The translations under genes were made by a program, and so were the position numbers. A stretch of 64,000 nucleotides of DNA from NCBI GenBank assembly GCA_015055655.1, contig SVHW01000007.1:1-64000 (forward strand), read 5' to 3'. The notes under the pieces are model-generated. The model had not been told where the DNA came from. It searched no databases and was given only the letters and a program-made list of their open reading frames with translations. This document shows, one piece after another, positions 5,451 to 57,710 of the stretch. Numbering within the stretch: position 1 is the stretch's first letter; each line of letters starts with the position of its first letter. This stretch comes from Clostridiales bacterium. GTDB lineage: Bacteria; Bacillota; Clostridia; Christensenellales; Borkfalkiaceae.

Positions 5451-5715
5451 ACCCTATATGAATATAGGGTAAACGGCGTAGATACGAGCAAGACAAGGCG
5501 TACGCGGATTGCCCGACGGGACGTTTACTTTCCGTAAACGAGCAAGAGCAAACGTAAGTATAACGCCGTATTACAAATAAAATATTGCCTTTGGGTAAAC
5601 GGCGTAGATACGAGCAAGACAAGGCGCGCGAGCATTTTTCAAAGGGACGCGTACAAGGCGTACGCGAGCGAGAAAAGCGGAGCGCAACGCAGTATTGCGA
5701 CGTATATACGTCGTT
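5451..5715. repeat. Intergenic modular repeats within the arg operon (34-bp exact repeat at 5467-5500 and 5593-5626, each followed by a hairpin)
   Basis: gggtaaacggcgtagatacgagcaagacaaggcg occurs twice; hairpins ACCCTATA-TGAA-TATAGGGT, GTTTAC-TTTCC-GTAAAC and CGCGTAC-AAGGC-GTACGCG. Confidence 0.8.
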
Positions 5716-6582
5716 TTAGATATGGTTACCTGAAACGAACATCGTCCCAATCCCCTCATCCGTCAACGTTTCGATAAGGATAGAGTGCGGAACGCGTCCG
5801 TCGATAATGAATACTTTTTTCACCCCACGGCGAATCGCTTCGATACAGCAATTTACTTTGGGAATCATACCGCCGCTGATAACGCCGTCACGGACGAGTT
5901 TCATTACGTCCGAAACGTAAACCTTGGGAATAAGCGTTGTCGGGTCGTCTTTGTCACGGAGCAAACCGACGATATCCGTCATGGAAATCAAGCTTTCCGC
6001 TTTCAGCTCACCTGCAAGACGCGCGGCAACCGTATCCGCGTTGATGTTGTACACGTTGCCCTCCTCGTCGTAACCGACGGTGGATACAACGGGGATATAC
6101 CCTTTATCGAGCACGTCTAAAACGGGCGCAACGTTGACGTCTGTTACTTCGCCTACGAACCCTAATCTTTCGTCCACTTTCTTGGCGCGTATCATATGCC
6201 CGTCGATGCCGCAAAGCCCTATCGCTTTGCCCCCTTTATTTTGCAACAAGTTGACCAAGTTTTTATTTACTTTACCCGCCAACACCATTTGCACGACGTC
6301 TACCGTTTCTTTGTCCGTTACCCTAAGTCCGTCAACAAATTCCGATTTTTTGCCGATTTTGGAAAGCGTTTCCGTGATTTCCGGACCGCCGCCGTGTACG
6401 AGCACTACTTTTACGCCAACCAACGACAAAAGCACGATATCTCCCATTACCGCTTCTTTCAGGTCATCGTTTATCATCGCGTTTCCGCCGTATTTTACCA
6501 CGACGATTTTATCGTTATATTTTTGAATATAGGGAAGCGCTTGAATAAGGATATGCGCTCTTTCTTCACTCGTTAAATTCAT
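5716..6582 (-). CDS. argB: Acetylglutamate kinase
   Basis: VVKYGGNAM, VLVHGGGPEI, GLCGIDG, GGMIPKV motifs. Confidence 0.95.
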   Translation of the reverse strand: MNLTSEERAHILIQALPYIQKYNDKIVVVKYGGNAMINDDLKEAVMGDIVLLSLVGVKVVLVHGGGPEITETLSKIGKKSEFVDGLRVTDKETVDVVQMVLAGKVNKNLVNLLQNKGGKAIGLCGIDGHMIRAKKVDERLGFVGEVTDVNVAPVLDVLDKGYIPVVSTVGYDEEGNVYNINADTVAARLAGELKAESLISMTDIVGLLRDKDDPTTLIPKVYVSDVMKLVRDGVISGGMIPKVNCCIEAIRRGVKKVFIIDGRVPHSILIETLTDEGIGTMFVSGNHI

Positions 6583-55094: not shown

Positions 55095-55805
55095 TTATAA
55101 TTCGAAAGGGTCGTCGTTGGATTTACGGGTCTTTTTTACAGGCTTATCTTCCACTACGTATATGCCCTTTTTCCATTTCCGTCTTCTACGCCACGCAGCG
55201 ATTGCGCGGATAACGTTGCCCGTGCAAAACAGCACGACGTTGCCCAGCGCCACGAAGATGGCAATTCTGCCTTGCCACGTATTGAAAATAGCCAACAACA
55301 CCAAACACACAACGTCGAAAATAGCCAGCCATTTCATCTTTATCGGGATAAAGAAAAACAGCAAAACTTGGTGATTGGGATACAGGATAGCAAACGCCAA
55401 AAACAAGGAAAGGTTGAGATAGTACACCGTCGCGTAGCCCGTAATAAACCCCGAACCGATAGAACAAAGCACTCCGCAAAAATAGAATACGTTGAATTTG
55501 AACGCACCCCACGTCCTTTCCAGCGACGTGCCGATTATCCAATAAAAATACATAGAAATAAGCAATAAAAACGGATTAAATTCGGGCGATATAAACAAAA
55601 ACGTAACCAATCGCCAAACTTGACCGCGCAATATCGCTTCCTTATTAAAATCAATATAAACTTCTATCCATACGCCCGTCCGTAACAAGACGATGTAGTT
55701 GACAATCCAAACGAGTATCGTCCCGACGGCGAGTATCGTCATCAGGTTTTTCAGCGCGAACCGCCCGATTTTTCTATCCAATTTATCCAATAAAGGTTCT
55801 CTCAT
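55095..55805 (-). CDS. Rhomboid-fold membrane protein lacking catalytic Ser/His (pseudo-rhomboid/derlin-like)
   Basis: Six TM-like segments; GQVWRLVTFLFIS (WR motif); FYWIIGTSLERTWGAFKF; no GxSG. Confidence 0.65.
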   Translation of the reverse strand: MREPLLDKLDRKIGRFALKNLMTILAVGTILVWIVNYIVLLRTGVWIEVYIDFNKEAILRGQVWRLVTFLFISPEFNPFLLLISMYFYWIIGTSLERTWGAFKFNVFYFCGVLCSIGSGFITGYATVYYLNLSLFLAFAILYPNHQVLLFFFIPIKMKWLAIFDVVCLVLLAIFNTWQGRIAIFVALGNVVLFCTGNVIRAIAAWRRRRKWKKGIYVVEDKPVKKTRKSNDDPFEL

Positions 55806-55812
55806 ACTCTAT

Positions 55813-56100
55813 TTATACCCTGTTTTTGTCATACAAACACTGTTTATAGACGATTTTACATTTTTTTGGTTTTGTTTTTCGATAAACGAGATTTACCAAA
55901 CTCCCTATTGCAGGACACGCTTCGCCTGCTTTTATCCACCTTCTACGCGTATATTCCACGCCGTCCACCACGTATTTTACCTTGACGATATAAGGAAACG
56001 TCGCCCCGTCAAACGTGCCTTTACGCATGGGCTTGGTGTTCACTTTCAGCCACCATTGTCGCTTCACCGACACCACTTCCCCTATTGTTTCTGCGTACAT
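55813..56100 (-). CDS. Small conserved hypothetical protein (95 aa, QWWLKVNTK motif)
   Basis: ATIGEVVSVKRQWWLKVNTKPMRKGTFDGATFPYIVKVKYVVDGVEYTRRRWI. Confidence 0.7.
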   Translation of the reverse strand: MYAETIGEVVSVKRQWWLKVNTKPMRKGTFDGATFPYIVKVKYVVDGVEYTRRRWIKAGEACPAIGSLVNLVYRKTKPKKCKIVYKQCLYDKNRV

Positions 56101-56186: not shown

Positions 56187-57095
56187 TTAATATTTTCTCG
56201 AAAGTAACTCTTTGTATTCTAAAAACTCATTCTTGTCGGGAATGGTTTGCAAAACAAATGCTATTTTTCCTTTAAGCGAAAGCAAATATCTTTGTTTATC
56301 GCTTTGCCCTATTTTTCTCAAATGATCTTCTAATCCAAATTTTTTAATATAGTACATTTCTTGTCGAATTTTCTTTTTATATTCTTTAGTTAGGTTGATT
56401 TTTTCGTTAACAACAATACCCGTTACTATTTGCCGTTTTTTATTAGGAACGACTGCCGTTTTACGATTTTTTAAAAATAAACCCAACTTTTTAAGCTCAC
56501 TCTTCACAAGCTCAATAATTTCTTTTTCGTTAAAATCACCCGAAAAAGTCATATCGTCACAATATCTTGTAAATGCAATCCCTTTCTCCGCACAATAACT
56601 ACCAATCTTTTCATCAAAGTCATACATGATGATATTGGTAATAGCGGGCGATGTAGGCGCACCTTGCGGAAGTGAATCAAGATAATAACACAACATAGAT
56701 AAAAGAATTCTAATGGGTTCAGAAAACTTTTCTTTGAAAAACACAGTTTCTTTTACTCTTGAATAAATGATATTATCAAAGAAGCCTTCAATATCCAACT
56801 TTAATATCTTTTTCTTCCCCACGTGCGGCATTGCGTTCTTTTGTACGCTAGCGCCATACGCATAAGCGCAAGCATATTTGGATGTTGGATAATAAGCCAA
56901 AATGTTATCAGCGATAGAACGCTGTACCTTTTTCAAAATCAAATCGGGGACGGAGAGTTTACGTTTTGTTCCGTCACTTTTCGGAATAAACGCATTATGA
57001 TAATGTTTATCAAGATTATTACTCAACCCATACAAGGTTTTCGCAGAAAAACCCAAATCGTGTTCGATAGATTTAAGTTCTCTATAAACTATCAT
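56187..57095 (-). CDS. Retron reverse transcriptase
   Basis: NAMPH (NAxxH) motif, LPQGAPTSPAITNIIMYDFDEKI, FTRYCDDMTFSG (YxDD), QIVTGIVVNEKINL (VTG motif); strong GGAGGAGAGG RBS; 302 aa bare RT. Confidence 0.93.
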   Translation of the reverse strand: MIVYRELKSIEHDLGFSAKTLYGLSNNLDKHYHNAFIPKSDGTKRKLSVPDLILKKVQRSIADNILAYYPTSKYACAYAYGASVQKNAMPHVGKKKILKLDIEGFFDNIIYSRVKETVFFKEKFSEPIRILLSMLCYYLDSLPQGAPTSPAITNIIMYDFDEKIGSYCAEKGIAFTRYCDDMTFSGDFNEKEIIELVKSELKKLGLFLKNRKTAVVPNKKRQIVTGIVVNEKINLTKEYKKKIRQEMYYIKKFGLEDHLRKIGQSDKQRYLLSLKGKIAFVLQTIPDKNEFLEYKELLSRKY

Positions 57096-57119
57096 AAGCC
57101 TCTCCTCCTCGATTTATTT

Positions 57120-57376
57120 TAGAACAACACCAATTTGTACACGAAACGCAGCAGGCGTAGTTAGGCAAGGTGTAGCCTGCGAAGCCTTGCGTGGCTACGT
57201 CGAGCATTGCAGTTGAGCGGAGCACAACCGTTACACAAAAGAATATTGACGTCAATGAAATGTCTCGGACGCAATATTTCTTTTGTAGGTTGCGCGCAGC
57301 GAATACGATACATATAAGTGACAAGATGACGACTCGCCATCCTTTTTGACAAAAGTCAAAATACACTGTTGTTCTA
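57120..57376 (-). ncRNA. Predicted retron msr-msd ncRNA
   Basis: Perfect 10-nt complementary ends TAGAACAACA (a1, 57367-57376) and TGTTGTTCTA (a2, 57120-57129); hairpins TTTTGAC-TTTT-GTCAAAA (57344-57361) and GATGGCG-AGT-CGTCATC (57325-57341); long imperfect hairpin 57222-57295; second hairpin 57156-57199; lies directly 5' of the RT. Confidence 0.85.
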
Positions 57377-57382
57377 TTGTTT

Positions 57383-57411
57383 ATTATAACATCTTAAGAA
57401 TATTAAGTCAA
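57383..57411 (-). promoter_or_regulatory. Predicted retron promoter TTGACT-N17-TATAAT
   Basis: Minus strand TTGACTTAATATTCTTAAGATGTTATAAT; predicted start falls at or next to a1. Confidence 0.8.
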
Positions 57412-57504
57412 CCCTTTAAAAAGTTGTGGTTTATTTTTAAAACAATTTTATCATATCACACAATGCATACCAAAAATGGTACATATAGTCAACTTAAAAA
57501 ATAA

Positions 57505-57541
57505 AAGACTTCAACACTAATTGGAGCCTTTTATTTTTTGT
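57505..57541. terminator. Bidirectional terminator-like hairpin
   Basis: AAAAGACTTCAA-CACTAA-TTGGAGCCTTTT flanked by A and T runs. Confidence 0.65.
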
Positions 57542-57710
57542 CTTGCTATTCATTATTTCTTCTTTTGCGCAGCTCTCACACGAGCTTCGACTTCTATGAC
57601 GGATTGCTGTTCTTTCTCTCCACTAAAGTCAAGCTCCACGTTTAAATTGGCATCTGTTGTTTTCGCGACAATTGAACCAGTGTCTCCACGTGCTTGGTTT
57701 GGGGGAACAT
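57535..57710 (-). pseudogene. Frameshifted fragment resembling an RlmD C-terminal tail (duplicate of the rlmD 3' end plus extra tail)
   Basis: Minus strand encodes MFPQTKHVETLVQLSRK, then in a shifted frame TTDANLNVELDFSGEKEQQSVIEVEARVRAAQKKK; the first 12 aa match the intact rlmD tail MFPQTKHVETLV. Confidence 0.6.

Follow-up and report, generated by a model that had tools for sequence, protein, structure and literature searches.

The minus strand of the window, by which we mean the whole 64,000-nt stretch of contig SVHW01000007.1 of a Clostridiales bacterium, carries a reverse transcriptase (RT) gene preceded by a structured non-coding RNA (ncRNA) and a promoter. An earlier note on this DNA had described the locus as a retron, a small bacterial element whose RT turns the element's own RNA into numerous short strands of DNA; the coordinates given there for the RT, the promoter and the a1 and a2 repeats were re-read in the sequence and matched, and the hairpins are present. 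The features, in the order of transcription and each with its basis, are as follows.

57406-57411 (-): -35 box TTGACT; sequence, with promoter-like spacing ahead of a1 in most relatives
57383-57388 (-): -10 box TATAAT, 17 nt from the -35 box; sequence and recurrence in relatives
57367-57376 (-): a1 repeat TAGAACAACA, start of the ncRNA; pairs with a2
57366 (-): predicted branch (priming) guanosine, first base past a1; invariant A-G
57318-57366 (-): msr domain, with helix P0 closing H1 and H2; P0 covariation and Ec107 counterpart
57344-57361 (-): msr hairpin H1, TTTTGAC-TTTT-GTCAAAA; compensatory changes in all 4 counted pairs
57323-57343 (-): msr hairpin H2, GGATGGCG-AGT-CGTCATCTT, with the family hallmark GCGAGTCGC; covariation
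57130-57316 (-): template (msd) predicted to be reverse-transcribed, 187 nt, lying between P0 and a2; analogy with Ec107
57222-57295 (-): branch-specific extra stem-loop, 74 nt, between CGTATTCGCTGC and TCCGCTCA; covariation and clade distribution
57142-57212 (-): core msd stem-loop common to the family; covariation
57120-57129 (-): a2 repeat TGTTGTTCTA, end of the ncRNA; pairs with a1
57099-57110 (-): ribosome-binding site GAGGAGGAGAGG; read directly from the sequence
56187-57095 (-): retron RT, 302 aa, YCDD, without extra domain; PADLOC, identity to the Ec107 RT and structure model

The TTGACT-N17-TATAAT promoter reported upstream of the RT was confirmed at 57411-57383, and a -10-like box recurs in most of the relatives printed, where a TATAAT/TACAAT-like sequence lies 7-8 nt upstream of a1. 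Transcription is expected to start at, or shortly ahead of, a1. At the other end of the ncRNA, the distance between a2 and the ATG of the RT is 24 nt. A genome search found the retron in one copy in the host genome.

The reverse transcriptase

The RT contains the motifs NAMPH (residues 87-91), YCDD (178-181) and VTG (224-226), all of which had been noted before. Retron RTs are defined by NAxxH in region X and VTG in region Y (PMC6868368), and both were found at the expected places in the window RT. PADLOC, which the earlier note had proposed as a check, gave its best score with the retron model RT_Ec107-like (414.8 bits, E 5e-125), followed by RT_III-A (332.6 bits); with RT_Ec107-like, the authentic Ec107 RT of E. 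coli ECONIH1 reaches 438.6 bits. The window RT and the E. coli Ec107 RT are 42% identical over 298 aa and have YCDD in common. The predicted structure (pLDDT 93.4) contains no extra domain, and its best 18 PDB matches in Foldseek are all retron RTs.

General RT matches were also returned by NCBIfam and Pfam, as would be seen with an RT of another class (DRT/UG or group II-like) that happened to lie behind a structured leader. This explanation is already contradicted and can practically be discarded: the retron models far outscore the DRT and group II models, NAxxH and VTG are present, the structure matches retron RTs first, and the RNA, described below, covaries and resembles that of Ec107.

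The YCDD core had been taken as a sign of a divergent clade, a suggestion that proved wrong. The catalytic core of RT-Eco5 (Ec107) is itself YCDD (PMC6868368), and the motif is therefore read as a signature of the family that unites Ec107 and its Clostridial relatives. All Clostridial relatives examined (those in genomes, with at least 41% identity) have YCDD, except for one YSDD sequence present in two records.

Close matches to the window RT are rare in the host's family (2 in 301 genomes). Searches of viral contigs, phages and plasmids revealed no RT above about 43% identity and so gave no hint that this branch has a phage home. One genome of the same family (L016, 1504-1554) contains, in otherwise unrelated surroundings, a 17-residue island (YCDDMTFSGDFGEKEII) that matches the window RT at 94% identity, which we read as a relic of a lost retron RT. 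Two related Ec107-type retrons were found at different sites of one Erysipelotrichaceae genome (JAFYHQ010000014.1 and JAFYHQ010000006.1; loci L097 and L106).

Structure and conservation of the ncRNA

In total, 80 Clostridial RT loci were collected, and the ncRNA alignment drew on 35 sequences. The same design was found upstream of most RTs, namely the promoter, a1, AG, H1, H2 with GCGAGTCGC, CGTATTCGCT, a large stem and a2. The a1-a2 segment of the window RNA has a folding energy of -88 kcal/mol (z = -5.2 versus dinucleotide shuffles). Over the 35 sequences 94.9% of cells are paired, as compared with 79.2% in shuffles, and compensatory changes occur in 20 of the 28 pairs; when the partners are slid by 1-3 columns, pairing falls to 36-50%. 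Judging by the fold z-score, the covariation and the recurrent -10 box, the structure of the ncRNA is more than chance.

The exact a1/a2 inverted repeats previously noticed directly 5' of the RT are present and covary in the 35 relatives, the helix being paired in 99% of cells with compensatory changes in five of nine pairs. The A-G following a1 is invariant in the 35-row alignment and is present in E. coli Ec107 too; by analogy with retron biology, its guanosine, G57366, would have the priming role. Both short hairpins that had been called msr-like, TTTTGAC-TTTT-GTCAAAA and GATGGCG-AGT-CGTCATC, are also real features of the alignment, with compensatory pairs over the 35 sequences. H2 has such changes in seven of nine pairs and is paired in 96% of cells, and E. 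coli Ec107 has the same hairpin.

Helix P0, absent from the earlier description, is formed by the stretch beginning with the putative branch G and by bases past H2. In the window it consists of GTG (57364-57366) paired with CAC (57318-57320), and across loci it co-varies (GTG/CAC, GCT/AGC, GCG/CGC, GCC/GGC). None of 2000 permutations of the partners among sequences gave pairing as good, a statistic that ignores kinship. In E. coli Ec107, which was outside the training set, the corresponding helix is GCGTT/AACGC.

A covariance model of orthologous loci, likewise proposed earlier, was built for the msr half only (R1, from 33 loci), the stems of which covary. In 391 Clostridia genomes R1 found five matches, the window and four loci outside training, and all five lie directly upstream of RTs located independently by protein search. 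The msr of E. coli Ec107 was recovered by R1 with E = 0.002 in 12 kb, a value that is weak alone and convincing only together with the position of the match. Rfam, searched at gathering and at E <= 1, gave no model or retron family match for the window RNA.

The ncRNA of one relative (L041) is interrupted between H2 and the msd, at about 5623-5866, by a 244-bp element whose terminal inverted repeats (TATAGCATAAAAGAGTCGAAC) are 21 bp long and perfect; a retron RNA gene has here received a MITE-like insertion.

Homology, covariation and the search with the held-out model all support the initial assignment of the locus to retrons, and it is a retron of the Ec107 (Retron-Eco5) family.

The predicted msd template and its extra stem-loop

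A long hairpin and a second hairpin near a2 had been regarded as msd-like. Both are present, but the long one is not the msd core: it is the branch-specific insertion, while the msd shared by the family is the stem-loop at 57142-57212. In this core stem compensatory changes were found in four of six upper-stem pairs over the 35 sequences and in six of 15 pairs over the 11 near relatives.

The extra stem-loop at 57222-57295 interrupts a conserved block between CGCTGC and CGCTCA. The window retron and its ten closest relatives, which together make up an 11-member clade (support 100/99), all possess it, and one change on the tree accounts for its distribution; neither Ec107 nor the aligned relatives outside this clade showed it. 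The extra stem-loop is thus shown to be a one-time gain. Within the clade its helices (4-5) contain nine pairs with changes on both sides, and since two helices covary in this way the element is selected as a structure.

How much of this region is copied can be estimated from Ec107, in which the 107 nt directly ahead of a2 start right after P0, in agreement with the retron naming rule and the 107-nt product behind its name (PMC6868368). By this ruler, which rests on a single length agreement (107 nt) in Ec107, the template of the window retron would occupy 57130-57316 and measure 187 nt, or 113 nt if the insertion is removed. If copying spans the region from P0 to a2, the extra stem would be copied into DNA, and the window retron should yield a two-hairpin msDNA of ~187 nt rather than one of ~110 nt. 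The msDNA length of Eco5 also depends on RNase H1.

It is also conceivable, although we do not consider it probable, that the extra hairpin stays RNA, serving as a stop signal or as a third stem of the msr, and that the msDNA comprises only the core hairpin of about 90-110 nt. Reverse transcription could finish at the extra hairpin, given its place immediately 5' of the core msd stem, and the core-only length is near 107 nt. However, the 107 nt ahead of a2 in Ec107 extend to P0, beyond the point that matches the insertion, and in Eco1 the stem structure was shown not to determine where reverse transcription stops (PMC8989520). The predicted template has no significant match elsewhere in the host genome and none in the phage collection.

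Genomic context and comparison with known retrons

The retron is flanked by rumA (57864-59282) on one side and a rhomboid-like gene (55095-55805) on the other. A terminator-like hairpin at 57496-57539 (AAAAAATAAAAGGCTCC...TCTTTTATTTTTT) ends the upstream transcript shortly before the retron promoter, and the 3' tail of rumA (MFPQTKHVETLV..., 57885-57920) has a second copy at 57675-57710, downstream of rumA. In the genus sisters the rumA-rhomboid gap contains different cargo together with one to three copies of the spacer or of the rumA-tail repeat; the cargo is a metallophosphoesterase in sister species G281 and an alpha/beta hydrolase in G192 and G177 (functions assigned by eye). The gap, a variable slot, resembles a site of recurrent integration. 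An empty-site comparison revealed no exact insertion ends, the gap of the genus sisters being occupied by other cargo and the relatives of two other hosts being too distant.

The flanking genes differ and are unrelated among RT loci. A scan of some 70-75 of these loci, with simple ORF calls (55 aa or more) over about 6 kb, which a tiny or distant partner gene would escape, revealed no protein family that recurs in a fixed position; the commonest neighbours, ABC transporters, lie at varying distances. The linked or fused effector that characterizes tripartite retrons was found neither as a recurring neighbour nor as an extra domain of the 302-aa RT. Because no neighbour family recurs, as in the solitary Ec107, we regard the cassette as consisting of the RT and the ncRNA only. 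The retron had been called complete, which is right for the RT and the ncRNA of an Ec107-type unit; unlike defence retrons, it has no effector gene.

Many validated retrons use an effector for phage defence (PMC12548924), and the gene that follows the RT on the same strand (55813-56100) encodes a 95-aa protein with a weak match to Pfam DUF3592. The locus could then be a tripartite defence retron like types I-XIII, in which RT-msDNA restrains a toxic effector encoded by this gene or acting in trans. We consider this unlikely: the Pfam match is sub-threshold, the 95-aa protein has no homologue in the loci of the other relatives, and the neighbours of the RT in about 75 loci include no recurrent gene family, Ec107 likewise having none.

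According to PMC6868368, Ec107 occupies an intergenic region where it has taken the place of a 34-bp palindrome, which suggested a preference for gene 3' ends or terminators. This idea was not supported: neighbour orientation is random, with the 3' end pointing toward the retron in 31 of 67 upstream and 30 of 68 downstream neighbours. The intergenic region of Ec107 lies between pyrE and ttk. A gap of 36 bp with such a palindrome separates the convergent genes slmA (= ttk) and pyrE of E. coli K-12, and the junction is interrupted or incomplete in about 378 of the 5394 E. coli genomes with a match; in two such genomes examined only an RT gene of 319 codons lies between slmA and pyrE. This junction (L247, L248, L249) is a handy natural presence/absence set for Ec107.

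The scattered, unrelated intergenic sites, the lack of a partner gene and the rarity in the host's family would also suit a purely selfish cassette of no benefit to the host. This seems rather doubtful, however, as strong selection has preserved the RT motifs and RNA pairs throughout the clade, and the analysis revealed neither a mobility enzyme nor a target-site pattern.

Very probably, then, the locus represents a self-contained retron belonging to the Ec107 (Retron-Eco5) family, with the transcript, priming and template proposed here and no dedicated effector gene. For the window retron we infer msDNA production, the branch point, the template limits and all function along the following lines. 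The promoter upstream of a1 would drive one transcript from 57376 or just ahead of it, comprising a1, msr, msd, a2 and the RT message. Pairing of a1 with a2 would present the 2'-OH of G57366 as a primer, and the YCDD RT would copy the msd from just inside a2, halting near P0. The branched RNA-DNA molecule (msDNA) would remain bound to the RT and, with the extra stem-loop in its template, would have a length of about 187 nt and two hairpins. Because there is no dedicated effector gene, the RT-msDNA complex may act alone, as a decoy or sensor, or with a partner encoded elsewhere. Tentatively, it can be hypothesized that this is an effectorless lineage whose working product is the RT-msDNA complex, and that one Clostridial branch gained a second msDNA hairpin, doubling the sensor or decoy part.

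As far as we can tell from the literature covered, Mestre et al. (2020) aside, the branch-specific second stem-loop and helix P0 are new. The literature found establishes no role for Ec107, which does not fit the toxin-antitoxin picture of retrons, and our search found no phage-defence test of it. A conserved RT-RNA unit without an effector points to a hidden partner or to action by the DNA alone, a question made testable by dozens of Clostridial relatives and a well-supported RNA model. The natural second stem-loop also marks a place in the template that tolerates about 75 extra bases in the Ec107 family, which may be useful for retrons that write longer DNA in Gram-positive anaerobes.

Of the known retrons, type III-A (PADLOC RT_III-A) provides the next best protein models for the window RT, at 332 bits. 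Type III retrons carry PRTase and DNA-binding proteins (PMC12548924), both of which the window retron lacks. The closest solved RT folds are those of Retron-Eco1 (Ec86) and Eco7/Ec78 (TM 0.74-0.76), with a similar layout of msr hairpins and msd; these retrons differ in their low identity (about 25-27%), in the presence of effector genes and, in Ec86, in a YADD-type core, and form a separate family. Retron-Eco5 (Ec107; read from ECONIH1, L248) shares with the window retron the YCDD core, the PADLOC model, an RT 42% identical, a1/a2, P0, H1, the GCGAGTCGC hairpin H2 and an msd ahead of a2. It also has no accessory gene, sitting directly between slmA and pyrE. On the tree its RT belongs to another division, and it is without the 74-nt extra stem-loop; its template measures 107 nt as against the 187 nt predicted for the window retron.
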